Below are positions 42,071 to 56,404 of a stretch of 64,000 nt of DNA, piece by piece (position 1 is the first letter of the stretch; each line of letters begins with the position of its first letter). The translations under genes and the position numbers were made by a program. A model generated the notes under the pieces. It did not search any database. It worked only from the letters and a program-made list of their open reading frames with translations, and had not been told where the DNA came from. Source of the stretch: Roseicyclus mahoneyensis (lineage in GTDB: Bacteria > Pseudomonadota > Alphaproteobacteria > Rhodobacterales > Rhodobacteraceae); the NCBI RefSeq assembly GCF_003148775.1, contig NZ_QGGW01000009.1:62001-126000 (forward strand), given 5' to 3'.

Positions 42071-42721
42071 CTAGGTTCCGCAGGCGTCACGCAACTGGCG
42101 CACGGCGGCCTGCGTACCGTCGATGATGGGGATCGGGCAGCGATCCTGCAGTCGATGGGCCAATCCGGCAAGGGGTCCGCCGCCCAGAACCACGCTTTGC
42201 GCCCCATCGACGGCGCAAGCCCGGCACAGGTCCAGGATCGCCAGACCAAGAGTATCGGCCACGTCAGCGGGATCATGCCGCAACGGGCCGGGGGGGCTCA
42301 CGATCCCGACAAGTTGATCGAGCACGCCATGCTCATGCGACTTGTGATGCAAGGGCGCAGCGACCTCGGGGGCGAAGGTGACGATGGCAAAGGGGCCACC
42401 CCGGCGCCGAACCTCGGCAAAGGCGGCCTCGGCGATGCCGATAACCGGCAGATGCGCATGCGCCGCCCGGACCTCGGGCGCGCCAGTGTCCCCGAAGGAG
42501 GCAAGCACGATCCCGTCGAAATCACCCTCCTGCTGCGCAATGGCCGCCAGCACCCCGGCCACAGCCGCCCGCCCGTCTTCCTCGGTCACGATCAAGGATG
42601 GCCCGAAGGCCGCAGGAACGGTGGTAAAGCGGTCCCCCGGGTGCGCCACGGCCTGCGCGGCGGCATTGATGCGCGCCGTCACACCGGGCGACGTGTTGGG
42701 GTTCACGATCAACAGCCGCAT
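42071..42721 (-). CDS. Asp/Glu/hydantoin-racemase-like protein lacking both catalytic cysteines
   Basis: 216 residues. The MRLLIVNPNTSPGVTARI start and overall strand pattern are those of the Asp/Glu/hydantoin racemase family. In active members the first cysteine is in a CFGDPG-like motif and the second in LGCAG; here the segments read ASFGDTGAPE and VVLGGGPLAG, so both positions are Ser/Gly. It is unlikely to be a two-base racemase; ligand binding, or a chemistry not using the cysteines, is possible. The start overlaps the dctM stop (ATGA), so it is part of the TRAP operon and should act on its substrate. Confidence 0.8.
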   Translation of the reverse strand: MRLLIVNPNTSPGVTARINAAAQAVAHPGDRFTTVPAAFGPSLIVTEEDGRAAVAGVLAAIAQQEGDFDGIVLASFGDTGAPEVRAAHAHLPVIGIAEAAFAEVRRRGGPFAIVTFAPEVAAPLHHKSHEHGVLDQLVGIVSPPGPLRHDPADVADTLGLAILDLCRACAVDGAQSVVLGGGPLAGLAHRLQDRCPIPIIDGTQAAVRQLRDACGT

Positions 42722-44007
42722 CACAAGATGACCGATGGTAGCCACAAGACGATGGCGGGGAAGAGATTGACGAGGATCAACGCCACCAGCATCGCGCCGA
42801 TGAAGGCCATGAGTGATGGAATGATCTTGGCGATGGAGATCTTGGCGATGGCGCATGTGATCAGCACGACCGAGGCCACCGGTGGCGTCTGCTGCCCGAT
42901 GCCGAGGTTGATGGTCAGGATCAGGCCAAAATGCACCCGGTCGATGCCCAGTTGATCGGCCAGCGGCAGGAAGATCGGGACCAGCATCAAGATCGCGGGC
43001 GTCCCGTGGATGATCGTGCCCGCCAACAGGAAGAACACGTTGATCGCCAGCAGCACGACCCAGTAGTTGTCCGACAGGCCCAAGATCGCCTGCGCGATGG
43101 TCTGGGGGATCTGCTGGTTGGTCATGTACCAGCCCAGAAGCGTCGAGGTGGCCACGATGAACATCAGCATTGCGCTGCGCTTGCCCGCGATGCGGAAGGT
43201 ATCGAGAAGATTGCCCAGCCGGATCGTGCGGTAAAGGAAGGCCGCCAGAACGATGGACCAGAAGGCCGCGATGGCGCCCGCCTCGGTCGCGGTGAAAATG
43301 CCGCCCAGAATGCCCACAAGAATCAAGATCGGCAGAGTCAGGGGAATGGCGGCATCCTTGCCGGTTTCCAGCACGCGCTTGAGGCGGAACTCGCCCTCGG
43401 TCGGATAGCCTTTGCGGACGGAGATGATGTAGGCCGTCGCCATCAAGAGCCCGCAGACAAGGATGCCGGGCAAGATACCGGCGGCGAACAGCTCGGCGAT
43501 CGAGGCGTTGGCCACATAGGCATAGAGGATCAGGTTCAGCGACGGCGGCACGATGATCGCCATCGTGGCCGAGGTCGATGTTACGGCGGCGGCAAAGGCG
43601 GCCGGGTAGCCGCGTTTCTTCATCTGCGGGATCATCACCGAGCCGATGGCGGCAGCATCCGAGGTGGCGGTGCCCGAAATCTCGGAAAAGAACAGCGATG
43701 TCAAGATGTTGACATGCGCCAACCCGCCCCGGATATGCCCGACCAGACTGGAGGCGAAGGCGATCAGCTTTTCCGCGATGCGCCCCTGATTCATCACTTC
43801 GCCCGCGATCATGAACAACAGCGCCGCGACAAGCAGGTAGTTGTTGGCGCCGCCAAACGGGATCAGGCCGATGATTTGCGGCACGACGGCGGGATCGATG
43901 ATGATGAGCGTGGCCGCCGTGACGCCCAGCACGAAGGCGATGGGCAGGCCCGCGATCAGCAAGACGACAAGAAGGATCAGGATGATCCAGCCGGGATCGA
44001 GAAACAT
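42721..44007 (-). CDS. dctM: TRAP transporter large permease (DctM)
   Basis: 428 residues, about 12 membrane segments. FFSEISGTATSDAAAIGSVMIPQM and the VPPSLNLILYAYVANASIAELFAAG segment are DctM landmarks. The start ATG 44007 shares a base with the dctQ stop (TGATG); a GTG at 44010 is possible. Forms the sodium-coupled channel of a secondary importer. Confidence 0.9.
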   Translation of the reverse strand: MFLDPGWIILILLVVLLIAGLPIAFVLGVTAATLIIIDPAVVPQIIGLIPFGGANNYLLVAALLFMIAGEVMNQGRIAEKLIAFASSLVGHIRGGLAHVNILTSLFFSEISGTATSDAAAIGSVMIPQMKKRGYPAAFAAAVTSTSATMAIIVPPSLNLILYAYVANASIAELFAAGILPGILVCGLLMATAYIISVRKGYPTEGEFRLKRVLETGKDAAIPLTLPILILVGILGGIFTATEAGAIAAFWSIVLAAFLYRTIRLGNLLDTFRIAGKRSAMLMFIVATSTLLGWYMTNQQIPQTIAQAILGLSDNYWVVLLAINVFFLLAGTIIHGTPAILMLVPIFLPLADQLGIDRVHFGLILTINLGIGQQTPPVASVVLITCAIAKISIAKIIPSLMAFIGAMLVALILVNLFPAIVLWLPSVIL

Positions 44008-44528
44008 CACGCGTCGCTTTCGGGCAAGAGGTCGTCAGGATGAACCTGCCCGGTCAGCAGACCGGCCAGACGGGTGACACTGATGAGCGCGATCAAGGCT
44101 CCGCCGACGGGCATCGTGTAGCGAAACAGCGCCATCGGCAGGTCGACCGAGATCATCATGCGGCTGCCGAAACTGGCCGCCGCGATACCGCCATACCAGG
44201 CAAGCAGCACACCGAACCCGGCGATCAGGATCAGGTTGCCCGCCATCACCGCGCGCTTGACGCCCGGCGGCAGGATGCGAACCACCGCATCGAACCCCAG
44301 ATGTTCCGAGGTGCGGGTCAGGTAAGCGGCGCCGATGAAGGTCAGCGCGGCGAGGATATGGGCAGGCAACTCTTCCGACCAGGAGACGGAATTGTTGAAC
44401 ACGAAGCGGCTGACCACCGCGATGTTGAGCAGCACGAAGAGCAACCCGGCCAAGCCGATCACCGCCGCGTCCAACGCGCGCGTCAGCCAGAGATCGAGGC
44501 GGGCGATAAGGGTGGTAAGGCTGGCCAT
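44007..44528 (-). CDS. dctQ: TRAP transporter small permease (DctQ)
   Basis: 173 residues, four membrane segments, with the DctQ pattern FNNSVSWSEELPAHILAALTFIGAAYL and HLGFDAVV. Start at ATG 44528 has AGGAG ten bases upstream; an earlier start at 44552 would overlap dctP. Small membrane partner of DctM. Confidence 0.87.
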   Translation of the reverse strand: MASLTTLIARLDLWLTRALDAAVIGLAGLLFVLLNIAVVSRFVFNNSVSWSEELPAHILAALTFIGAAYLTRTSEHLGFDAVVRILPPGVKRAVMAGNLILIAGFGVLLAWYGGIAAASFGSRMMISVDLPMALFRYTMPVGGALIALISVTRLAGLLTGQVHPDDLLPESDA

Positions 44529-44548
44529 GGCCGGGTGCTCCTGTCGCA

Positions 44549-45529
44549 TCACTCGATGCCAAGCGCCGCGCGGGTCGCTGCGATCATGTCGGCACCGATC
44601 ACGTCAACGAAGGTCGGGCTTTCGTAAAGCGGTGCTGCAGCAGCCTGAAACGCGGCGAAATCGACCTCATTGATGGCGATACGGTCACCCAGCTCGGCGA
44701 TCACGCGGGCATCGGTTTCCGTGCCCCAGTCAAAGGTCCAGGGCGCAAGCTCGGCCGCGACGGTCATGACGGTTTCCCGCAGGGCAGGGTCGAGCCCGTT
44801 CAAGTAGGGTTCACCGAAAACCAGAAAGGTCGGCAGGTAGACATGGTTGGACAGCGACATGTAATCCTGCACCTCGTAGAGGCGCGCGCTTTCCACGATC
44901 TCGGCCGGATTTTCCTGCCCGTCGATCACACCCTGATCAAGCGCGGAATAGACCTCGCCAAAGGACAGCGGTGTGGCGTTCGCGCCCAACGTGTTGAACA
45001 TCTCGACGCGCTGGCGGCTGGTGGGGGTGCGGATCTTGAGACCCACCAGATCGGCGGGCACCACGATGGGGCGCACGTCATTGGTGATCTGGCGGAACCC
45101 GTTGTCCCACATCGCGGCCAGCATCATGCCGGTGCCATCGAAACCCGCGGCCATCATCTCGCCCGCAGGGCTGGCCGCAAAGGTCTGGACCGCGGCGCGG
45201 TCCTCGAACAGGTAGGGAAGGTCGAAGATCGCAGTGCGCGCATTGATCTGCGCGATGGCCGAGGCCGAGAGCGAGGCGTGATGCGTACCAAGGCCAAGGC
45301 CCTGCAGCACGTCTTCCTCGGAGCCGAGCGTGTTCGACATGAAGATCTGCACGTCGATGGCGCCTTCGGTGGCTGCCTCGAGGCGGGATTCGTATTCGAG
45401 CAAGAAGACATGCGCGAACGACCCATCCGGCAGTGAGGAATTGATCTGAAGGACGGTTTGCGCCGAAGCGACGCCCGGCAGGGCGAGGCTCGCGGCCGCG
45501 ATGAAAAGCGAATTTCTCAGGAGCGTCAT
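44549..45529 (-). CDS. dctP: TRAP transporter substrate-binding protein (DctP)
   Basis: 326 residues. Signal peptide MTLLRNSLFIAAASLALPGVASA. Mature part is DctP-like: GSFAHVFLLEYESRLEAAT, LGSEEDVLQGLGLGTH, the ligand-carboxylate arginine segment GLKIRTPTSRQRVEMFN, and EVYSALDQGVIDGQENPAEI. Substrate probably a small organic acid. First gene of the operon, with an RpiR regulator upstream on the same strand. Confidence 0.9.
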   Translation of the reverse strand: MTLLRNSLFIAAASLALPGVASAQTVLQINSSLPDGSFAHVFLLEYESRLEAATEGAIDVQIFMSNTLGSEEDVLQGLGLGTHHASLSASAIAQINARTAIFDLPYLFEDRAAVQTFAASPAGEMMAAGFDGTGMMLAAMWDNGFRQITNDVRPIVVPADLVGLKIRTPTSRQRVEMFNTLGANATPLSFGEVYSALDQGVIDGQENPAEIVESARLYEVQDYMSLSNHVYLPTFLVFGEPYLNGLDPALRETVMTVAAELAPWTFDWGTETDARVIAELGDRIAINEVDFAAFQAAAAPLYESPTFVDVIGADMIAATRAALGIE

Positions 45530-45578
45530 GTCTCGATCCTTTCGAGGGGAGGCGGGGAAAAACAATGCCCACCCATGC

Positions 45579-45624
45579 AAAAATATTTTCCGTTGCCCGC
45601 CATGATAAAAATGCATTTTCATGG
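45579..45624. promoter_or_regulatory. AT-rich inverted-repeat region upstream of dctP, candidate RpiR site
   Basis: Contains AAAAATATTTTC (45579-45590) and, 10 bases on, CCATGA (45600-45605) and TCATGG (45619-45624) as perfect 6-bp arms around an AT-rich centre. GAAAATAT also occurs just upstream of the RpiR gene at 46561. AT-rich islands are rare in this GC-rich DNA. Confidence 0.35.
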
Positions 45625-45708: not shown

Positions 45709-46554
45709 TCAGATCTCGTCAAGCGAATCATGGATGGCTTCGATGGCGCTCAGCCTTTCGCGTCCAGCCGGACCCGATCTTTCGATCGCGGCGGCCGCCA
45801 GCAGACCGCAGATCGCCATGACGCCGACATGATCGAACAGGGCCCCCGCGCCGGTGGTGCTGCACGGCAGGGTCCACCTGACTGGCCCCGCACCAAGCTC
45901 GGTCAGGTCGCCGATCAGGGCCACATCCGCGCCGCAGCCCGTCACATGCCGCAGCACCTGATCGAGCTGGCGTGGCGGCCTGCGCAGGGCGAACACGATC
46001 ACGCAATCGCCCGGACCGATCCCGGCAAGGCTTTCAGCCAGTGTCTCCCCGTCGCGCGGCAGGGTCGCCACGTCGGACCGGACCTGCATCACCTGCCATG
46101 CAAGGTAGCGGGCAAAGCCCTGACCGGCCCGAAAGCCGACCACCCACAACCGGCGCGCCGCGACCATGGCCGTCACGAGGCCCGCGATCTCGGCCTCGTC
46201 CAGCGCCGCAAGGCTTTGCTCAAGGTTGCCGTGGCACTGTGCGAGGTGACGGGCCACCAGCCCTTGCGAGGGGGTTCCATCCCCCCCGACCCGGAACAGC
46301 GCAGTTCCCGCCACCTGTTCGGCCCGCACGGCTTGCCGCGCCTCTTCAAAGGACGCGTAGCCGATCTTGCGGACAAAACGGGTCACCGTGGCGTTGGACA
46401 CGCCAGCAAGCTTGGCGATTTCCGTGGCGGTATATCCTGCCAACTGGCCGGGGAAATGCACGATGGCATCGGCAAGGCGCTTTTCGCTGGGATGAAATTC
46501 CGGCGTCGCCTTGCGGATGCGGGTCAGAAACGAGGTCTTTGGCGCTGGCGACAT
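45709..46554 (-). CDS. MurR/RpiR-family transcriptional regulator
   Basis: 281 residues. N-terminal RpiR helix-turn-helix (RLADAIVHFPGQLAGYTATEIAKLAGVSNATVTRFVRKIGY, read in parts) and C-terminal SIS domain (LWVVGFRAGQGFARYLAWQ, then FALRRPPRQLDQVL, where the usual S-x-S-G-x-T nucleotide/sugar-phosphate loop is altered). RpiR proteins sense phosphosugars or organic acids. Same strand and upstream of the TRAP operon, which it probably controls. Confidence 0.85.
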   Translation of the reverse strand: MSPAPKTSFLTRIRKATPEFHPSEKRLADAIVHFPGQLAGYTATEIAKLAGVSNATVTRFVRKIGYASFEEARQAVRAEQVAGTALFRVGGDGTPSQGLVARHLAQCHGNLEQSLAALDEAEIAGLVTAMVAARRLWVVGFRAGQGFARYLAWQVMQVRSDVATLPRDGETLAESLAGIGPGDCVIVFALRRPPRQLDQVLRHVTGCGADVALIGDLTELGAGPVRWTLPCSTTGAGALFDHVGVMAICGLLAAAAIERSGPAGRERLSAIEAIHDSLDEI

Positions 46555-46802: not shown

Positions 46803-46920
46803 GTGCGCAGAGCATTTAGGGTTCCGCCCGGGTTCGGGGTCTGGTCCGAGAAATGCGGCCGCGTCGGCAAATTCCGGCACGGTACACGGCGGGCCAAAAT
46901 CCCGGGAGAGCACTGCGCAT
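46803..46920 (+). promoter_or_regulatory. Guanidine-I (ykkC-yxkD) riboswitch aptamer
   Basis: The conserved aptamer blocks occur in order: TTTAGGGTTCCG (46815-46826), CTGGTCCGAGA (46841-46851), ACACGGCGGGCCAAAATCC (46884-46902) and CCGGGAGAGCA (46902-46912). The flanks TGCGCAG (46804-46810) and CTGCGCA (46913-46919) form a perfect P1 stem. Guanidine-I riboswitches turn genes on when guanidinium binds. The sequence lies 76 bases upstream of the first gene of the transporter/hydrolase operon. The expression platform is uncertain; TCCT-GTCGG-AGGA near the ribosome binding site (46977-46988) could sequester it. Confidence 0.92.
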
Positions 46921-46995
46921 CTTGTTCGGCCGCTCCCCTCGAACGTCGCTGTCTTCGGTCGGACGTCTGCCATCATCCTGTCGGAGGACCCGAAG

Positions 46996-48060
46996 TTGAC
47001 GAAAACAACCCTCGCCGCGACCACCGCCCTTGCCCTGACCCTGTCCACAGGCCTTGCCACTGCGCAGGAGCGCACGGAGTTTTCCGTCGCATGGTCGATC
47101 TATGTCGGCTGGATGCCCTGGGGCTATCTGGACGAAAGCGGCATCATGGATGCTTGGGCGGAACGCTACGGCATCACCGTCGATATCGTGCAGATCAACG
47201 ATTATGTGGAATCGATCAACCTTTACACAGCGGGCGAATTCGACGGGGTGTCGGCCACCAACATGGACACGCTGTCGATCCCGGCAGGATCGGGCGTGGA
47301 CACCACGGCACTCATCGTCGGCGATTTCTCCAACGGCAACGACGCGGTGATCCTCAAGGGCGAGGGGACACTGGAAAGCCTTGCGGGCATGCCCGTCAAC
47401 CTCGTGGAACTGTCGGTATCTCACTACCTGCTCGCCCGTGCGCTCGACAGCGTGGGACTTGAGGAACGCGACCTTGCGGGTGTCATCAACACCTCCGACG
47501 CCGACATGATCGCGGCCTTCGCCACCGATGACGTGCAGGCGGTCGTCACCTGGAACCCGCTGGTCTCCACCATCGCCGAGGACCCTGCCGCCAATATCCT
47601 TTTCACCTCCGCCGACATCCCCGGCGAGATCATCGACATGATGGTGGTCAACACGGAAACGCTCGCCGCCAACCCCGATTTCGGGCGCGCCTTGGTGGGG
47701 GCGTGGTATGAGTTGATGACGATCATGTCGTCGGACACGCCCGAAGGCGTCGCGGCGCGCACCGCCATGGCCGAGGCCTCGGGCACGGACCTTGCGGGCT
47801 ATGACGCGCAACTGGCCTCCACCCAGATGTTCTGGAACCCCGCCGATGCGGTCGCCTTCGTGCAAAGTCCGGCGCTGCCGGAGACCATGGTGAGCGTGGC
47901 CGAGTTCCTGTTCGAGCGTGGCATTCTTGGCGAAGGGGCACCGAGCGCCGATTTCGTCGGTGTCGAATACCCCGGCGATGTGGTCACGGGTGATCCCGCC
48001 AATATCCGCCTGCGCTTCGATCCCAGCTTCATGCAGATGGCGGCCGACGGGGCGCTGTAA
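46996..48060 (+). CDS. Guanidine ABC transporter substrate-binding protein (urea-carboxylase-region type)
   Basis: 354 residues starting at a TTG with GGAGG nine bases upstream. Signal peptide MTKTTLAATTALALTLSTG ending LATA-QE. The mature part (FSVAWSIYVGWMPWGYLDESG, ATNMDTLSIPAGSGVDTTALI) has the features of the NMT1-like receptors first noted beside urea carboxylase/guanidine genes. Following a guanidine-I riboswitch, it is best read as a guanidinium-binding protein; the aromatic-rich WSIYVGWMPW segment may give a cation-binding cage (inference). Confidence 0.87.
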   Translation: MTKTTLAATTALALTLSTGLATAQERTEFSVAWSIYVGWMPWGYLDESGIMDAWAERYGITVDIVQINDYVESINLYTAGEFDGVSATNMDTLSIPAGSGVDTTALIVGDFSNGNDAVILKGEGTLESLAGMPVNLVELSVSHYLLARALDSVGLEERDLAGVINTSDADMIAAFATDDVQAVVTWNPLVSTIAEDPAANILFTSADIPGEIIDMMVVNTETLAANPDFGRALVGAWYELMTIMSSDTPEGVAARTAMAEASGTDLAGYDAQLASTQMFWNPADAVAFVQSPALPETMVSVAEFLFERGILGEGAPSADFVGVEYPGDVVTGDPANIRLRFDPSFMQMAADGAL

Positions 48061-48084
48061 CGGCAAGCGGACGGGGTCCGGGTC

Positions 48085-48897
48085 ATGCGGCTGATCAACC
48101 GATATCCCGGCCCCGTGGGCCGCGTGGCACTGGCCGCCCTGCCCTTCGTGCTGGTGGGACTTGTCTATGCGCAAGCCTCGGCCGCGCGGCTGGCCGAGAA
48201 CCCGCAGGACCGCATCCTGCCCTCCTTCGCCACCTTGGGCGGAACCGCGTGGCGGCTCTTGACCGAGGAAGACCGGCGGTCGGGCGAGATCCTGTTCTGG
48301 GGCGATACCCTGTCCAGCCTGTCGCTTCTGGCGGCGGGCGTTGGCATCGCCGCGCTTTTGGGGCTGGTGCTGGGGGTAGCCATAGGGCTGATCCCGCTGA
48401 TCCGGTCCAGCCTGCAGGGTTTCGTCGCCGTCGTCTCGATGATCCCGCCGCTGGCGGTGCTGCCGATCCTCTTTATCACGCTGGGCGTGGGCGATACCGC
48501 CAAAATTGCGCTGATCGCCATCGGCATAACGCCGTTCCTGATCCGCGACCTCACGGCGCGCACGCTGGAATTGCCGCAAGAACAAGTGGTAAAGGCGCAG
48601 ACGCTGGGCGCTTCGACGCTGGGCATAGCCCTCTCGGTCGCGCTGCCGCAGATCCTGCCGCGCCTGATCTCGGCGATACGCCTGTCGCTTGGCCCCGCAT
48701 GGCTGTTCCTGATCGCCGCCGAAGCGGTCGCTTCAGACAGCGGGCTTGGCTACCGCGTGTTCCTTGTCCGCCGCTTTCTGGCGATGGACGTGATCCTGAC
48801 CTATGTGGCGTGGATCACGCTGCTGGCCTTCCTGATTGACTGGGGGCTGGCGCGCCTGTCGCGCTGGCTGTTCCCGTGGGCGGAGGCGCGGGGATGA
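48085..48897 (+). CDS. Guanidine ABC transporter permease
   Basis: 270 residues, BPD_transp_1 permease with six membrane segments. EAA loop near EQVVKAQTLGASTLG; family is that of nitrate/taurine/urea-carboxylase-linked permeases. Starts 24 bases after the binding-protein gene; stop overlaps the ATPase start (ATGA). Confidence 0.87.
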   Translation: MRLINRYPGPVGRVALAALPFVLVGLVYAQASAARLAENPQDRILPSFATLGGTAWRLLTEEDRRSGEILFWGDTLSSLSLLAAGVGIAALLGLVLGVAIGLIPLIRSSLQGFVAVVSMIPPLAVLPILFITLGVGDTAKIALIAIGITPFLIRDLTARTLELPQEQVVKAQTLGASTLGIALSVALPQILPRLISAIRLSLGPAWLFLIAAEAVASDSGLGYRVFLVRRFLAMDVILTYVAWITLLAFLIDWGLARLSRWLFPWAEARG

Positions 48898-49676
48898 CGC
48901 TGGTTCAGGTCGACGGCATCTTTCAAAGCTACGGCCCGCGCCCAATCTTGGAGCGGGTGTCGCTGTCGGTGGGTGAAGGCGAATTCATCTCGATCGTGGG
49001 CGCGTCCGGCTGCGGGAAATCCACCTTCCTGCGGCTGCTCTTGGATCAGGAACGCCCCACGCGCGGCCAGATCACGGTCGACGGCCAGCCGTTGAAGGGA
49101 GAGCCAGACCGCACGCGCGGCATCGTGTTCCAGCGTTATTCAGTGTTCCCCCACCTGACCGTCCGCGACAATATCGTGGCCGCCGAAGGCTTGTCGCGCC
49201 CGCTGGGCCGCTTGTTCGGCCCCGCCCGCCGCGCCGCGCGCGCCCGCGCCGATGCCACGCTCGACCGGATCGGGCTGGCGCATGTGGCCCACCAATATCC
49301 CGCCGCGCTGTCAGGCGGCATGCAACAGCGCCTTGCCATCGCACAGGCGCTGGCGGCCAAGCCCCGTATCTTGCTGCTCGATGAACCCTTCGGCGCGCTC
49401 GACCCCGGCACGCGCGAGCAGATGCACGCTTTTCTGACCGATCTGCGCCAGGAAACCCCCATGACCGTCTTCATGGTCACCCACGACCTGCGCGAGGCGT
49501 TCAAGCTGGGCGACCGGGTCATCGTCTTCGACAAGACCCGCTGGGACCCCCATGACCCCGCCGCCTATGGCGCGACGATCACCTATGATTTTGACGCCCG
49601 CAACGGCGGCATCCCCTATCAACTGAAAGAGGACCAAGATGGATCATCTCACCCCGCGGCGCAGCCGGCCGCATAG
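48894..49676 (+). CDS. Guanidine ABC transporter ATP-binding protein
   Basis: 260 residues. Walker A GASGCGKST, Q-loop IVFQRYSVFPH, signature LSGGMQQRL, Walker B ILLLDEPFGALD, H-loop VTHDL. The C terminus after residue 205 carries an extra stretch (TRWDPHDPAAYGATITYDFD) typical of this urea-carboxylase-linked ATPase group. The last 38 bases overlap the hydrolase gene, which starts at its own ribosome binding site. Confidence 0.88.
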   Translation: MTLVQVDGIFQSYGPRPILERVSLSVGEGEFISIVGASGCGKSTFLRLLLDQERPTRGQITVDGQPLKGEPDRTRGIVFQRYSVFPHLTVRDNIVAAEGLSRPLGRLFGPARRAARARADATLDRIGLAHVAHQYPAALSGGMQQRLAIAQALAAKPRILLLDEPFGALDPGTREQMHAFLTDLRQETPMTVFMVTHDLREAFKLGDRVIVFDKTRWDPHDPAAYGATITYDFDARNGGIPYQLKEDQDGSSHPAAQPAA

Positions 49677-50883
49677 CCCGCGCCTTGCGCCGCGCGACGA
49701 CCGGCGCGCGCATCACCCCGACCTGACGAAGCTGCGCGGCTGGCGCGCGATGCAGGCTGAGGCCGACATTCCCGGTGACCGCTGGGACGAAGAACGCCGC
49801 TGGGCGCTGCGCATGGGGCTGACCGGCGCCGACAGCATCGAGGACAAGTCGATCCCCACCTTCGCGCGCGGCGAGCTGCCCCATTACGCGGGCATCAACA
49901 CCTTCCTCAAGGCGCCCTACGCCGAGGATGTGACCGAGGTGAAGCATTACGACGCCACCGTCCTTGGCATCCCCTTTGACGGCGGCACCACCTACCGCCC
50001 TGGAACGCGCTTTGGCCCGCAAGGCTTGCGCAAGATCAGCGCGCTTTACACGCCCTACAACTATGAGCTGGCCGTCGACCTGCGCGAACAGATGACGCTC
50101 TGCGATGCGGGCGATGTGTTCACCATCCCCGCGAACCTCGAAAAGAGCTTCGACCAGATCAGCCGTGCAGTCAGCCACGTGTTCAGCTCCGGCAGCTTCC
50201 CGATCATGATCGGGGGCGATCATTCGATCGGGTTCCCTTGCGTGCGCGGCATCGCGGAATGCACCTCCAAGAAAATCGGGATCGTGCATTTCGACCGCCA
50301 CGCCGACATTCAGGAAAAAGACCTCGACGAGCGGATGCACACGACGCCGTGGTTCCACTCTACCCTCCTGCCCAATGTGCCGGCCAAGAACCTCGTGCAG
50401 GTGGGCATCGGCGGCTGGCAGGTCCCGCGCGAGGCGGTGAAGGTCGCGCGCGAGCGGGAAACCAACATCATCACCATGTCCGACATGGAGAAGATGGGCA
50501 TCGACAAGACCGCCGAGATGGCGCTGGAAATGGCATGGGATGGCGTCGACATGGTCTACATGTCCTTTGACATCGACAGCATCGATTGCGGCTTTGTCCC
50601 CGGCACCGGCTGGCCCGAACCCGGCGGCTTCCTGCCGCGCGAGGCGTTGGCGCTGGCGTCCAAAGTGGCCGCCGAAGGGCTCTGCGGCATGGAACTGGTC
50701 GAGGTCAGCCCGCCCTATGACACCTCCGACATCACGGCGCTGATGGGCACGCGGGTGATCGTGGATGTGCTGGGCTCGATGGTGGCGGCAGGCAAGATGG
50801 GCGCGCACAAGCGCCATATCGACAAGCCCGTGACCATCCCGCATGGCGAGTTCACCGGGCGGAGGTGGTCCAATGCCCCATGA
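49639..50883 (+). CDS. gdmH: Arginase/agmatinase-family enzyme, probable nickel-dependent guanidine hydrolase (GdmH-like)
   Basis: 414 residues; a long N-terminal part (about 100 residues before the ureohydrolase core) exceeds the 300-320 of agmatinases. Metal ligands of the ureohydrolase site are visible: His195 (GGDH), Asp219, His221 and Asp223 (HFDRHAD), Asp311 and Asp313 (SFDID). Differences from agmatinases: FDRHAD in place of FDAHxD, and PGTGWPEPGG in place of PGTGTPEPGG, i.e. changes beside the metal and substrate. With the guanidine riboswitch and importer upstream, hydrolysis of guanidinium to urea and ammonium is the best reading; GdmH enzymes use nickel. Start at ATG 49639 has AGAGGA. 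Cytoplasmic. Confidence 0.85.
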   Translation: MDHLTPRRSRPHSPRLAPRDDRRAHHPDLTKLRGWRAMQAEADIPGDRWDEERRWALRMGLTGADSIEDKSIPTFARGELPHYAGINTFLKAPYAEDVTEVKHYDATVLGIPFDGGTTYRPGTRFGPQGLRKISALYTPYNYELAVDLREQMTLCDAGDVFTIPANLEKSFDQISRAVSHVFSSGSFPIMIGGDHSIGFPCVRGIAECTSKKIGIVHFDRHADIQEKDLDERMHTTPWFHSTLLPNVPAKNLVQVGIGGWQVPREAVKVARERETNIITMSDMEKMGIDKTAEMALEMAWDGVDMVYMSFDIDSIDCGFVPGTGWPEPGGFLPREALALASKVAAEGLCGMELVEVSPPYDTSDITALMGTRVIVDVLGSMVAAGKMGAHKRHIDKPVTIPHGEFTGRRWSNAP

Positions 50884-51316
50884 TCACCACCACCACGGGC
50901 ACGGGCACCACCATCACCCGCATGATCACAACCATGCACACGGTCCCGCCGATCACCTCCATTCGCACCTGACGCCCGAGGATAGCGCCGCCGATCTGCA
51001 GATCCTGACCGCGCAATTCATCGACGGTTTCGTGACCGCCGCCGACAAGGCCGCCTATCTGCAGCTCGCGGGCGTTCCGCTGGAACGGCCGGGCAAGGCC
51101 GGGGCCAGCACGCTGAAACTGGTGGATGTGGAGTTGAAAACCGAATGGCAGGTCGGCACTGCTTCGCCGTCCTTTGGCACGCGGGAACTCAGCTACCTGC
51201 CCTTTCCGGGGTCGATGATCCGGGAACGCACCAACATGGCATTGGTCTACGTCTCGATGGACGAAAAGGACAGGCTCGACATCCGCGATTTTCTGGCGAC
51301 GCGCGACCTGCCCTGA
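50873..51316 (+). CDS. Histidine-rich protein, candidate nickel donor for the guanidine hydrolase
   Basis: 147 residues. Residues 3-32 hold 17 histidines (MPHDHHHHGHGHHHHPHD followed by HNHAHGPADHLHSH), like the His tails of HypB, UreE and CooJ that store nickel. The remaining 110 residues (DLQILTAQFIDGFVTAADKAAYLQLAG, STLKLVDVELKTEWQVGT) are not from a family I recognise. No signal peptide. Overlaps the hydrolase gene by 11 bases with GGAGG upstream. In Synechocystis, GdmH needs HypA/HypB-like partners for nickel; no such gene is here, so this protein may do that job. Metal, and role, are inferred. Confidence 0.7.
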   Translation: MPHDHHHHGHGHHHHPHDHNHAHGPADHLHSHLTPEDSAADLQILTAQFIDGFVTAADKAAYLQLAGVPLERPGKAGASTLKLVDVELKTEWQVGTASPSFGTRELSYLPFPGSMIRERTNMALVYVSMDEKDRLDIRDFLATRDLP

Positions 51317-52157: not shown

Positions 52158-53171
52158 TCAGCGGACAAGGACAAGGTCTGCGGGATCGATCTGCAGGTCG
52201 ACGCTATCGCCTGCGGTCAGGCGCGGCTCGGAAATCGGGCGCGAGACGAGGAACTCAAGGTTTTCGTCCTGCACGACATATTCCATCCGGCTGCCCAGAT
52301 AGCTGGCAGACCGGATCGTGGCGATGCCACCCTTTGCCAGCCGGATGCGTTCTGGCCGGATCGTGGCGGTGACGATGCCATCCGCGGCCCTGACCGGCAG
52401 GGCCAGATGGGCGGCATGGAAGGTTCCAGAGGAAACCTTTCCCTCGATCAGGTTCGCATCGCCGATGAAATCGGCAACAAAGGACGATGCAGGCTGTTCA
52501 TAAAGCTCCGCCGGCGTGCCGATCTGGGCGATCTGGCCCATCTTCATCACCACGATGCGGTCGGAGACAGCCAGCGCTTCCTCCTGATCATGGGTGACAT
52601 AGACGGCGGTCAGGCCGAAGCGCTGCTGCAACTCGCGGATCTCCGCCCGGACCTTGCGGCGCAGTTTGGCATCGACGTTGGAGAGCGGCTCGTCGAACAG
52701 AAGAACATCGGGCTGCTGCACGATGGCACGCGCGACCGCGACCCGCTGCTGCTGGCCGCCCGACAATTCCGAGGGCAAGCGCGCCTCGTAGCCCGCCAGC
52801 CCCACCTGATCGAGGATGGCGCGCGCGCGGTCGCGCGCCTCGGCCTTGGGAACGCCACGGATCGTGGGGCCGTAGGACACGTTGTCGAGCACACTCATAT
52901 GCGGAAACAGCGCGTAGGATTGGAACACCATGCCGACGTTGCGTTCCGACGCAGGGTCGCGGCTGACGTCGCGGCCTGCGATCTTGACCTGCCCCTCGGT
53001 CGGCAGCTCCAACCCCGCGATCAGGCGCAGCGACGTAGTCTTGCCGCAGCCCGAGGGACCAAGAAAGGTCACAAGCTCCCCCTTGGCGATAGAAAAGCTC
53101 ATCTTGTCGACCGCCACGGCACTGCCGTAGCGCTTGAGCACATTCACGAATTCGATCGCCGTTTCCGTCAT
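52158..53171 (-). CDS. ABC transporter ATP-binding protein, FbpC/PotA (possibly 2-aminoethylphosphonate) type
   Basis: 337 residues. Walker A GPSGCGKTT, Q-loop MVFQSYALFPH, signature [14 protein letters not shown], Walker B VLLFDEPLSNVDAK, H-loop VTHDQ, plus a C-terminal TOBE-like regulatory domain. Partner of the fused permease 10 bases upstream. The nearby PhnCDE genes and phosphatase suggest an AepXVW-like 2-aminoethylphosphonate importer; iron(III) or another anion cannot be excluded. Confidence 0.85.
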   Translation of the reverse strand: MTETAIEFVNVLKRYGSAVAVDKMSFSIAKGELVTFLGPSGCGKTTSLRLIAGLELPTEGQVKIAGRDVSRDPASERNVGMVFQSYALFPHMSVLDNVSYGPTIRGVPKAEARDRARAILDQVGLAGYEARLPSELSGGQQQRVAVARAIVQQPDVLLFDEPLSNVDAKLRRKVRAEIRELQQRFGLTAVYVTHDQEEALAVSDRIVVMKMGQIAQIGTPAELYEQPASSFVADFIGDANLIEGKVSSGTFHAAHLALPVRAADGIVTATIRPERIRLAKGGIATIRSASYLGSRMEYVVQDENLEFLVSRPISEPRLTAGDSVDLQIDPADLVLVR

Positions 53172-53181
53172 GCCCTGTCCC

Positions 53182-55368
53182 TTATTCCGCGGGGTCCGCC
53201 GCCGGGCGGCCCTGCAATTCCTGTCTGCGCCCCAGCCTGCGCGTGCCCACCGCCAACTGGATCAGCGCGACGCAGCCGATCATCACGATCATCAGCACCG
53301 CCGAATAGGCGATGGCGAGCGCGTATTCCCCCGCCTCGACCCTGCCCATGATATAGGCCGTCGCCATGTTGTGCCGCGCCGAGACAAGGAAGATCACGGC
53401 AGAGACCGCCGTCATCGCCGTGACGAAGGAATAGACCAGCGCCGTGAAAACCGCAGGCCGGATCAGGGGCAGGACCACGCGGCGCAGCGTCGTGGCCCCG
53501 CCCGCGCCCATGGTCTGCGACGCCTCCTCCATCGACTTGTCGATCTGGGCCAGCGCCGCCAGTCCCGCCCGCATGCCCACCGGCATGTTGCGAAAGACAA
53601 AACAGATGATGAGGATGGCCGCCGTCCCGGTGATGTCGACCGGCGGCACGTTGAAAGCCGCGACATAGGACACACCCACCACGGTGCCGGGAACCGCAAA
53701 GGACAACATCGTGCCGAATTCAAAGGCACGGCGACCGGCAAAATCCTGCCGCGCGACCAGCCATGCGGTCAGGATGCCCACCAGCGTCGTCAAGGGCGCA
53801 GCCAGCCCTGCGACCCAGAGCGTGGTAATCATCGAATCCCAAGCCGAGCCATAAAGCTGAAGGCCGTTCTCGGCGATCTCGAAACGGAAGGCGGTGACCA
53901 GATGGCTCAGCGTCGGCGTCAGGTCCCAGCGCCCGATATCGGTGACGAAGCCGCCTGCCGCGATGATGATGTAGACCGCCAGCGTGAACAGGACCCAAGG
54001 CAGCACCACCGCAAACACCGCGATCTTGAGGATTGGCGGCAGCGGTGCGGTCAGGCCAGCGTCGGATTTGCCGGTGACCGTGACGTAGCTTTTCTTGCCC
54101 ATCCAGCGCATCTGCAGCCAGAACGCGATCAGCGTCAGCGCCAGCAGGATCATCGCAAGTGTCGCAGCGTTGCCCAGATCGTAGCGCGCGCCGACCACGG
54201 CGAAGAAGATCTTGACCGACAGCACCTCGTAGCCACCACCCAGCACGATCGGGTTGCCAAAATCCGCAAGGCTTTCGATGAAGGCCAGCAGAAAGGCCGC
54301 CGCTAGACCAGGACGCAACAGTGGCCATGTGATCTTGCGGAAGGTGGTCATCGACCGCGCGCCAAGAGTGCGCGAAGCTTCCTCAAGCGTGGGATTGATC
54401 GCCTCGAGCGTGGACAGCAGCACAAGAAAGGTCACCGGCGCAAAGGCCAGAACCTGCGCGATCAAGATGCCGGGAAGGCCGTAGATCCAGCGGGTTGGCC
54501 GCACGTCCATCAGGTCGGCGACGAAGCTGGTGACCAGCCCGGTACGCCCGAAGAGCAAGATGATGGCGACGCCCACGACGAAGGGCGGGGTGATGATCGG
54601 CAGGATGGAAATGGCGCGAAGCGCCCGCTTCATCCGGAAATCGGTGCGGTTGACCAAAAGTGCCAGCGCAAGGCCCAGCGCGGTCGCAAACGAGGCCGAC
54701 AGCACGCCCAGAACCACGGTGTTCACGACCACGCCACAGCGCCCCGCGCCTGCGAAACAGGCCACACCCCAAAGATCAGGCGCCGAGATCCGCGCCCAGA
54801 AGGTGCCCAGCGCCAGCGCGCCCGTCGGATCAACAAAAGCAGCAATGCCAAGGCGCAGGATGGGGAAAAAGACAAACAGCGTCAGCAACGCGACGATGGC
54901 CGTGATGCAGAAAGCCGGGAAGCGCTCACCCCGGCAGAAGCCGCGCGCGGCGAAAAGGTCGGACAACAGGCCCGTCAGCGCGATCCCGGCCAGAAACCCG
55001 CCCCAGCCTAGACCAGTCTGCCCGTCGGCCGCGCGTGGGAAGGCGGACCCGACCCAATCGGCGGAGGGGCCGCGCAAGCCAACGGCAAAACCTTGCCAGA
55101 TCAGCAGCGCAAACGCCCCCAGCGTCAGGCCCAGCGCAAGATTGGACCTTTGCCAGCCGCGCGTCAGCGCGGCGATGGACAGGGCCGATGTCACCGCGAT
55201 CATCGGCCAGAGCCAGCCGCGTCCAGCCAGCGCCTCGGTCAGGGCCGAAGCGGCAGGGCCGGCAAAAAGGTTGTTACCCTTGTACCAAGGCACAAGACCC
55301 AGCGCTGCGGCCAAAAGACCGAGCCAGGCAAGCCCGGCTCGGTCCGATGTCAGGGAAAAGCGACCCAC
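53182..55368 (-). CDS. Fused two-domain ABC permease (FbpB/AepW-like)
   Basis: 728 residues with two permease halves: about six membrane segments with EAA loop LEEASRTLGARSMTTF, and a second set with MEEASQTMGAGGATTL. Such fusions occur in Fbp-type iron and in 2-aminoethylphosphonate importers. It begins with four additional N-terminal membrane segments. Start taken at GTG 55368, 16 bases after the binding-protein stop; no better start is visible and the ribosome site is weak. Confidence 0.82.
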   Translation of the reverse strand: MGRFSLTSDRAGLAWLGLLAAALGLVPWYKGNNLFAGPAASALTEALAGRGWLWPMIAVTSALSIAALTRGWQRSNLALGLTLGAFALLIWQGFAVGLRGPSADWVGSAFPRAADGQTGLGWGGFLAGIALTGLLSDLFAARGFCRGERFPAFCITAIVALLTLFVFFPILRLGIAAFVDPTGALALGTFWARISAPDLWGVACFAGAGRCGVVVNTVVLGVLSASFATALGLALALLVNRTDFRMKRALRAISILPIITPPFVVGVAIILLFGRTGLVTSFVADLMDVRPTRWIYGLPGILIAQVLAFAPVTFLVLLSTLEAINPTLEEASRTLGARSMTTFRKITWPLLRPGLAAAFLLAFIESLADFGNPIVLGGGYEVLSVKIFFAVVGARYDLGNAATLAMILLALTLIAFWLQMRWMGKKSYVTVTGKSDAGLTAPLPPILKIAVFAVVLPWVLFTLAVYIIIAAGGFVTDIGRWDLTPTLSHLVTAFRFEIAENGLQLYGSAWDSMITTLWVAGLAAPLTTLVGILTAWLVARQDFAGRRAFEFGTMLSFAVPGTVVGVSYVAAFNVPPVDITGTAAILIICFVFRNMPVGMRAGLAALAQIDKSMEEASQTMGAGGATTLRRVVLPLIRPAVFTALVYSFVTAMTAVSAVIFLVSARHNMATAYIMGRVEAGEYALAIAYSAVLMIVMIGCVALIQLAVGTRRLGRRQELQGRPAADPAE

Positions 55369-55384
55369 GGGGATGCGCTGCCGG

Positions 55385-56404
55385 TTACTGCGGCAGCGAC
55401 CCGATCTCGGCATCCCAGCGCTGCAGCAGGCGGGTGCGTTCCTCGCTCGACCCGTAGAGGGCAAAGTCGTAGTCGATCAGGTTAACATCCTCCAGCCGCG
55501 GGGCGGCATCGGGCGTGACCGAATTGACGTTCGACGGGATCTGGAAGCTGTTCGCCGTTGCGCCCAGTTCCTGCGCCGCAGGCGTCAGCGCCCAGTCGTA
55601 GAAAGCGCGCGCGGCATCCGGGTTCGGACCGCCCGCAATGATCGACATGGACCCCACCTCGTAGCCCGTGCCCTCGCAGGGGGCGACGGTCACGATGGGC
55701 GCGCCGGTCACGGTCTGGGCTACGGCGTCATGCATGAACACGATGCCGATGGCCGTTTCGCCGGTCGCCGCCGCCCGGATCGGGGCGGAGCCCGACTGGG
55801 TATACTGGCTGATGTTGCCATGAAGCTGGGTCAGATATTCGAAAGCCTCTTCCTCACCCATCAGCTGCACCAGCGTGGCCAGCATGGTGTAGGAGGTGCC
55901 CGAGGAGTTCGGGTTCGCTACCTGCACGTCATCCTCGAACCGCGCGTCCAGCAGGTCGGCCCAGCAGGCGGGCGGGTTCTCGGTCACGAGATCGGTGTTG
56001 TAGCCAAAGCCAAGGCCACCGGCGTAGATGCCGACGGTGCGGTAGCCCGAGGTTTCCGCCTGCTGCAGCGCCCAAGGCTGCAGTTCGGCCAGCATGTCCG
56101 AGCGGTATTCCTCGGTCAGCCCCTCTTGCGCAGCCTGCAGATGGGGGTCGCCGGTGCCGCCCCACCACACGTCGCCGCGCGGCTGGCCGCTTTCGGCAGC
56201 GATCTGGGCATAGGTCTCGCCCGAGGACCGGCGGGTCATCAGGACGTTGATCCCGGTTTCGCGCTGGAACGCCTCGGACATGGCACGGCACCATTCCTCC
56301 TGCACCGAGCAGTAGAGCACAAGCTCGTTGCCCTGCGCGCTGGCCGGAACGGCCGGTGCCAGCATGATGGCCGCCGCTGCCAGCAAAACGGATCTTTTGG
56401 TCAT
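55385..56404 (-). CDS. ABC transporter substrate-binding protein (FbpA/AepX-like)
   Basis: 339 residues. Signal peptide MTKRSVLLAAAAIMLAPAVPASA. Mature: LVLYCSVQEEWCRAMSEAFQRETG, GDVWWGGTGDPHLQAAQEGL, the SSGTSYTMLATLVQLMGEEEAF segment, which fits extracellular solute-binding family 1 receptors for Fe3+ or phosphonates. The tandem tyrosines that bind iron in FbpA are not evident, which favours an organic anion such as 2-aminoethylphosphonate (inference). Confidence 0.82.
   Translation of the reverse strand: MTKRSVLLAAAAIMLAPAVPASAQGNELVLYCSVQEEWCRAMSEAFQRETGINVLMTRRSSGETYAQIAAESGQPRGDVWWGGTGDPHLQAAQEGLTEEYRSDMLAELQPWALQQAETSGYRTVGIYAGGLGFGYNTDLVTENPPACWADLLDARFEDDVQVANPNSSGTSYTMLATLVQLMGEEEAFEYLTQLHGNISQYTQSGSAPIRAAATGETAIGIVFMHDAVAQTVTGAPIVTVAPCEGTGYEVGSMSIIAGGPNPDAARAFYDWALTPAAQELGATANSFQIPSNVNSVTPDAAPRLEDVNLIDYDFALYGSSEERTRLLQRWDAEIGSLPQ

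Follow-up and report, generated by a model that had tools for sequence, protein, structure and literature searches.

A predicted guanidine-scavenging operon of Roseicyclus mahoneyensis with a histidine-rich protein as candidate nickel-loading factor

Introduction

One of the closest described counterparts of the operon analysed here, which lies at positions 46805-51316 (+ strand) of a 64 kb stretch of the Roseicyclus mahoneyensis genome (hereafter the window), is the sll1077 (gdmH) operon of Synechocystis PCC 6803. Like the window, the gdmH operon has a guanidine-I riboswitch and an enzyme of the same group of nickel guanidinases (PMC8390497), together with an SsuA/TauABC-like ATP-binding cassette (ABC) importer (PMC8390497; PMC10119275 for the picocyanobacterial version). 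GdmH is encoded with homologues of HypA and HypB (PMC8390497), which are described as required for its activity (PMC12186494), and a related metformin hydrolase needs co-expressed HypA and HypB (PMC11399263). The metformin and dimethylguanidine hydrolases MefH and DmgH are, as predicted for the window's enzyme, nickel-dependent members of the arginase family encoded with nickel helpers (PMC11399263), but they are heteromeric and stand with hypA and hypB. The locus of the comammox bacterium Nitrospira inopinata shares with the window a guanidine-I riboswitch, a guanidinase with the specificity residues Thr and Trp, and the lack of nickel chaperone genes nearby; it has a permease of the APC family where the window has an ABC importer, and no accessory protein is reported in the sections covered (PMC11410670). 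The carboxylase pathway operons of Pseudomonas and enterobacteria likewise combine guanidine riboswitches with ABC importers (PMC12186494), but encode an ATP-dependent carboxylase, a deiminase and allophanate hydrolase.

The combination of riboswitch, guanidinase and importer is already known from Synechocystis, and the window holds a new member of it. In contrast to the Synechocystis operon, with its hypA and hypB, the window's operon and genome are without both, and a small protein with a histidine-rich (His-rich) tail adjoins the enzyme instead. What is new is this version without hypAB, in which a tightly linked protein not described before stands beside the enzyme; this protein is the unusual part of the operon, a point that an earlier note on this DNA did not recognize. 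On the present analysis the protein is probably, at a rough 0.55, a nickel-loading factor of the guanidinase. In the titles and abstract openings of the papers listed, a scope that does not extend to figures of gene neighbourhoods such as may stand in the GdmH discovery paper and in Nelson et al. 2017, nothing was found on the His-rich protein or on a guanidinase in Rhodobacterales. The nickel supply to the guanidinase of comammox Nitrospira is stated in print to be unclear (PMC11410670); the locus offers a specific candidate for guanidinase nickel supply in a lineage other than Nitrospira or Synechocystis.

Results and discussion

Organization of the operon

The source genome has a size of 4.03 Mb in 32 contigs, and the window corresponds to positions 62001-126000 of contig 9. 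Five genes follow the riboswitch on the + strand, and the following features were assigned:

46805-46910, + strand: guanidine-I riboswitch aptamer (RF00442; cmscan, 74.9 bits, E 1.7e-11)
46805-46810, + strand: 5′ arm (GCGCAG) of the outer stem closing the aptamer, pairing with 46913-46918
46913-46918, + strand: 3′ arm (CTGCGC) of the outer stem, pairing with 46805-46810
46919-46995, + strand: leader from the aptamer to the first gene, presumed expression platform; no terminator-like site found
46996-48060, + strand: substrate-binding protein of the ABC importer, presumed guanidinium binder, with TTG start (TIGR03427 equivalog, 521.1 bits)
48085-48897, + strand: ABC permease (PF00528, 60.5 bits versus a cut-off of 26.4)
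48894-49676, + strand: ABC ATPase (PF00005, 124.3 bits versus a cut-off of 25)
49639-50883, + strand: arginase-family enzyme, predicted guanidinase (GdmH-type guanidine hydrolase) of 414 aa (PDB sequence matches, tree, residues)
50873-51316, + strand: small protein of 147 aa with His-rich tail, proposed guanidinase nickel-loading factor (co-occurrence, conservation, predicted fold)

Every element that the earlier note had claimed was found, in the claimed order and on the + strand. The gene overlaps that it had described exist at three of the four junctions (4 nt between permease and ATPase, 38 nt between ATPase and enzyme, 11 nt between enzyme and His-rich protein), whereas the genes of the binding protein and the permease do not overlap. 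The longest open reading frame of the last gene begins at 50843; the start common to its homologues lies at 50873, and from there the protein begins with MPHD in 76 and with MAHD in 1 of 77 homologues. These 77 were extracted from 79 matches, leaving out L017 (no start found) and L053 (cut off), where L numbers denote loci and G numbers sampled genomes.

For comparison, the 80 closest enzyme loci were kept, one per contig, with enzymes 86-94% identical to that of the window (the nearest set). By their titles they presumably belong to the Rhodobacterales wherever a recognisable genus is named, and otherwise to uncultured Rhodobacteraceae, Paracoccaceae or Alphaproteobacteria. All five genes stand in the order of the window in 77 of the 80 loci, the remaining three (L027, L037, L053) being cut by a contig end; the arrangement is therefore not due to chance.

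Riboswitch and leader

Riboswitches of the guanidine-I class allow the expression of downstream genes upon binding of guanidinium. The covariance search, set beforehand as the test on which the aptamer claim depended, gave the match listed above, which spans positions 1-107 of the 107 of the model and exceeds the gathering score of 63. It is the sole Rfam match at gathering threshold in the window and the only copy of RF00442 in the genome. The outer stem pairs perfectly in the window. Its inner 4 pairs are formed in 72-74 of 77-78 aligned leaders (the alignment took 78 of 87 leaders, from 86 loci and the window) and are nearly invariant, and this result therefore reflects conservation, not covariation.

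For the related loci a leader model (R1) was built from 24 leaders, mostly found by a strict pattern; the matches of these leaders themselves are by construction, and they make up 20 of the 78 positives of the nearest set and 3 of the 8 positives among the distant loci. The riboswitch was present in 78 of the 80 nearest loci, and in the two others (L027, L053) the sequence starts at or inside the permease gene. Among 12 distant loci 8 were positive; the four without an R1 match comprise L110, whose sequence breaks off 55 bases upstream of the binding protein, L108, where the operon is missing, and the pair L105 and L114. The last two, in which all five genes are present without an aptamer by R1 or Rfam, count against the guanidine reading of the operon, as does the aptamer of L106, which reaches only 42 bits and stays below the Rfam threshold. 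The Rfam search also gave a riboswitch match in L149 (S. fredii SMH12) and L145 (Rubrobacter) and none in L130, L131, L146, L147 and L148.

An intrinsic terminator was considered as expression platform and rejected, none being seen in the leader of the window. Among 84 leaders with the 3′ aptamer anchor, at least two types of hairpin were observed before the start codon, in 24/84 and 18/84 and never together, and the leader of the window matches neither type. It may be that the expression platform changed several times among related leaders.

Assignment of the arginase-family enzyme

Among proteins of solved structure the enzyme matched 7esr/7oi1 with 545.4 bits and 9fek with 536.2 bits, which are the guanidinases of Synechocystis and Nitrospira inopinata, respectively (PMC11410670), followed by the next family at 172 bits; chains of the metformin hydrolase reached 129.6-132.7 bits. 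Over the compared region its identity is 69.6% with GdmH of Synechocystis and 66.2% with the guanidinase of Nitrospira, two proven guanidinases that share 70.3% identity with each other; with the two other arginase-family proteins of the genome it is 32.1% and 29.7%. A tree of 27 sequences unites the alphaproteobacterial enzymes (support 100) beside the two proven guanidinases and far from the other arginase-family proteins of the genome; confidence in the order of the deeper branches is lower, with support of 78-95 at most such nodes. The phylogeny that had been proposed as a check, together with the bit scores, places the enzyme with proven guanidinases and not with agmatinases.

The residues point in the same direction. 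Guanidine specificity is set by Thr97 and Trp305 in Synechocystis numbering (PMC11410670), and the enzyme has T118 and W325 at these positions as well as two further published residues, H234 and E355; the PDB chains are numbered two off the published scheme, and the offset was chosen so that all four published residues match. The specificity Trp is present in 22 of the 27 compared sequences and replaced by Thr in 5, namely L001 and L002 of the same genome, proclavaminate amidinohydrolase, L130 and L148. Residues H195, D219, H221, D223, D311 and D313, the presumed metal ligands of this arginase-family enzyme, are identical in all 27. In the nearest set the motif DRHADIQ occurs in 78/78 enzymes and the SFDIDSIDCGFVPGTGWP stretch in 77/78, with L037 (cut off) and L006 (no start found) left out of the tally. 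By clade, specificity residues and metal-site residues, the enzyme would be a nickel-dependent guanidinase of the GdmH type.

It is very improbable that the enzyme is instead an agmatinase or that its substrate is some other guanidino compound, such as methylguanidine or guanidinobutyrate. Its arginase-family domain and the label 'agmatinase family protein' fit such a function, and two further observations favour it at the expense of a guanidinase: the cut-off of the agmatinase model TIGR01230 was missed by only 6 bits (168 of 174.3), and the metal motif reads DRH[A/I/V]DIQ in the alphaproteobacterial enzymes versus DRHVDTQ in the two proven guanidinases. However, the score for a second agmatinase model, NF002564, also stays below its cut-off (205.3 of 302), the 545 bits to GdmH stand against at most 172 to other families, the enzyme has Trp325 at the position of a Thr in L001, L002 and proclavaminate amidinohydrolase, a guanidine-I riboswitch lies upstream, and the genome has a separate agmatinase elsewhere (L001; TIGR01230, 226.7 bits versus 174.3). 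The agmatinase reading was rejected on score, residues, tree and the separate agmatinase.

The label in question was seen in the four annotated plasmid matches (4 of 11 enzyme-bearing plasmid records, the others being unlabelled), and TIGR03427 (ABC_peri_uca), the family of the binding protein, is named 'putative urea ABC transporter substrate-binding protein'; the earlier note had guessed such automated labels correctly. The 80 closest loci and 16 sampled genomes, described below, suggest that hydrolytic guanidine scavenging is common in Alphaproteobacteria, and the visible labels say 'agmatinase family protein', so that the trait is easily overlooked.

Sister proteins of the arginase family were observed at L130:7983-9425 (G079) and L131:1-534 (G007), the latter cut by a contig end, each with a gene nearby that by eye looks like a LysR-type regulator. 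The L130 protein is 63.8% identical over the compared region, carries Thr where the guanidinases have Trp, and has a short His-rich insertion, HHDHSHMHD, within the enzyme. On an Embleya plasmid, L148:6001-7071 encodes a protein resembling guanidinases, with 57.7% identity over the region compared and again Thr for the specificity Trp, which possibly acts on another substrate.

Linkage of the His-rich protein to the enzyme

In the nearest set, 79 of the 80 loci have the gene of the His-rich protein behind the enzyme gene, at a distance of no more than 439 nt, and in the only locus without it (L037) the contig ends at the enzyme. The 11-nt overlap of the two genes recurs in 48 of 76 loci. The linkage was followed further in a class sample of 385 genomes and a phylum sample of 398 genomes, with at least G000 and G107 in both. 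In the class sample the enzyme matched at E 1e-60 in 14 genomes, 11 of them with long matches (at least 678 bits), and in all 11 (the window and 10 loci) the His-rich gene comes after those of the binding protein, permease, ATPase and enzyme. The three partial matches (G007, G064 and G079; 55-58% identity, 219-282 bits) are without a His-rich gene, and the one in G079 is the above L130, which when read through belongs to a sister family with Thr for the key Trp. The phylum sample gave the enzyme in 7 genomes (at least 666 bits), with the His-rich gene close behind in the same 7; its five new genomes were counted on the enzyme and the His-rich gene alone. An eighth match in this sample, in G594 (33 positions, E 3.8e-4), was taken as chance. 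Across both samples, 16 distinct genomes carry the enzyme and the His-rich gene. Fisher tests on long enzyme matches in the two samples gave 1e-19 and 3e-14, values to be taken as indicative only, given the non-independence of related genomes.

Among 72,556 plasmid records the enzyme was present at E 1e-60 in 11. The His-rich gene adjoins it on the 7 alphaproteobacterial plasmids (74-91% enzyme identity), for example in NC_012586.1 of Sinorhizobium fredii NGR234, and with two queries at E 1e-3 it was found in no other plasmid record.

Sequence and predicted fold of the His-rich protein

Alignments divide the protein into a His-rich tail, which varies widely in length, and a core of about 110 residues that stays constant; alignment A1 comprised 53 of the 78 available proteins (that of the window and 77 homologues). 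The protein of the window matched no NCBIfam family at E 0.01 and no Pfam family at E 0.1, the 53 members gave only weak Pfam matches with at most 4 members per family, and a profile of the 53 found nothing better than E 0.099 among PDB sequences. AlphaFold2 modelled the window's protein with a mean predicted local distance difference test (pLDDT) score of 72.1, a low-confidence tail and a core that is weaker around residues 91-120. The L107 homologue was modelled with a mean pLDDT of 81.1, a low-confidence tail and a confident core (residues 41-150, block-mean pLDDT 85-97), predicted to consist of two helices, beta-strands and a final helix. Foldseek returned no PDB match at E <= 0.001 for either model. 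Of the matches listed, 50 per search, the best had E 0.34 and the highest probability was 0.28, with COMM domains among the top, and none was used. Neither in sequence nor in fold was there a match to a known family of nickel chaperones such as HypA, HypB, UreE or SlyD.

Fusions to other domains, considered for long frames in G107 (484 aa), G316 (639 aa) and G365 (333 aa), were rejected, these being stop-to-stop frames; in G107 a plausible short gene lies inside the long frame, and in G316 the start is uncertain. At L112:7013-8032 (G365), a guanidine riboswitch is followed by the N-terminal part of a binding protein that abuts the His-rich core, and permease, ATPase and enzyme were not found there; this arrangement suggests either an internal deletion or a chimera of the assembly.

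A possible role in nickel loading

Neither hypA nor hypB is among the five genes of the operon by Pfam and NCBIfam. In the genome of the window HypA had no match at E 0.001, and the best HypB match (TIGR00073) reached 68.7 of 121.2 bits. Three PF02492 matches in the genome were examined as HypB and rejected, being a ZigA-like GTPase, UreG and MeaB. Of the 16 genomes carrying the enzyme together with the His-rich gene, 4 (G148, G327, G460, G691) exceeded the hypB cut-off and 3 of the same 4 that of hypA, the fourth being just under it; in every case the genes lie on another contig than the operon. A weak hypA match was found in G124 (34.9 of 88.1 bits).

The nickel-loading role is proposed because the His-rich protein stands in the place of the nickel helpers and is tied to a presumed nickel enzyme. 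Its tail would bind nickel and its conserved core would deliver the nickel to the guanidinase, so that the protein would do the work of the Synechocystis HypA and HypB homologues. We give about even odds to a broader version, in which the protein founds a new family of nickel metallochaperones with a fold of its own, dedicated to guanidinases and replacing HypA and HypB across Alphaproteobacteria, the core docking and the tail, at either end or lost, collecting nickel.

Several findings weigh against these proposals. A relative of the His-rich protein occurs without the enzyme in two genomes, G125 (a fragment, no operon) and G365. On the 4 Actinomycetota plasmids with the enzyme (53-62% identity) no His-rich gene was found, also not by profile in their stretches, and the protein is therefore not needed by all such enzymes. 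The tail retains one to four histidines in L109, L110 and L111, and little of it is present in L114, where the start is uncertain; nickel binding by the tail is therefore not the whole function, which counts for the core as the probable essential part. In addition, the Nitrospira guanidinase is active, with partial nickel occupancy, without a known chaperone (PMC11410670).

These last two points also bear on a different role, which we hold to be possible at clearly less than even odds: the operon is read correctly, but its last protein stores or buffers metal, acts in assembly or stability, or partners the guanidinase in a regulatory role. Such a role would fit the conservation of the core where the tail is nearly absent and the lack of a significant match of the predicted core to any solved structure, nickel chaperones included. 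It fits less well with the His-rich tails that recur in most aligned members, C-terminally in L112 and as a second, C-terminal tail in L011, as expected if metal binding matters. Moreover, the gene sits where like operons have hypA and hypB, the partners of GdmH and the metformin hydrolase (PMC8390497; PMC12186494; PMC11399263).

Predicted pathway and purpose of the operon

The aptamer score and the grouping of the enzyme with proven guanidinases support the reading of the locus as a cassette for guanidine import and hydrolysis, and a guanidine-inducible nitrogen-scavenging operon is very probable. Guanidinium would bind the aptamer in the nascent leader RNA and allow expression of the downstream genes, and the ABC importer would take up guanidinium. 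The binding protein exceeds the TIGR03427 cut-off of 333.9 bits and has no solved relative at E 1e-5 in a PDB sequence search; its family and the riboswitch suggest guanidinium as the substrate of the importer. The nickel-dependent enzyme would then, by homology, convert guanidine to ammonium and urea, and the urea would be split by a urease, for which a gene is present elsewhere in the genome.

Urease alpha and UreG are encoded about 4 kb apart on contig 1, that is, on another contig than the operon. Hydrolysis of guanidine alone frees one of its three nitrogens. The cassette by itself would therefore release one nitrogen of three, and the earlier description of it as 'self-contained' is too strong. 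Its claim that guanidine carboxylase is absent held, as nothing in the genome reaches the cut-off of the guanidine/urea carboxylase model TIGR02712, the best match scoring 548.9 of 1303.85 bits over positions 1-441 of 1201; in this the locus differs from the carboxylase pathway operons. Urease alpha exceeded the cut-off in 16/16 genomes with enzyme and His-rich protein, and in 3/14 control genomes from unrelated organisms. The urease match and the operon share a contig in G096 and G327, with about 6 and 10 kb between the match and the enzyme.

The operon could also serve detoxification, with guanidine being destroyed as a poison and not used as a nitrogen source. Cyanobacteria that lack the enzyme are poisoned by guanidine (PMC8390497), but the operon has an ABC importer with a binding protein and no exporter, and urease is encoded in all 16 such genomes; detoxification is accordingly an unlikely purpose.

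A different arrangement was seen in L145, on a plasmid of Rubrobacter indicoceani, where a guanidine-I riboswitch, a guanidinase-like gene and a sodium:solute symporter are followed by formamidase (opposite strand) and urease genes. The likely importer differs from that of the window, and no His-rich protein was found there.

Neighbouring genes

The window from 52158 to 56404 encodes, on the opposite strand, an ABC transporter for whose permease and binding protein the best NCBIfam models are of the 2-aminoethylphosphonate type, both well below cut-off. Downstream of the operon lies a gene of the inositol-monophosphatase family, also on the opposite strand. Divergent from the operon, and likewise on the opposite strand, are an RpiR-type regulator (45709-46554) and the genes of a tripartite ATP-independent periplasmic (TRAP) transporter (44549-45622, 44007-44552 and 42721-44010), near which an open reading frame at 42071-42856 looks racemase-like by eye. 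Among the 80 nearest loci the RpiR-type regulator is present in the available stretch of L007 only.

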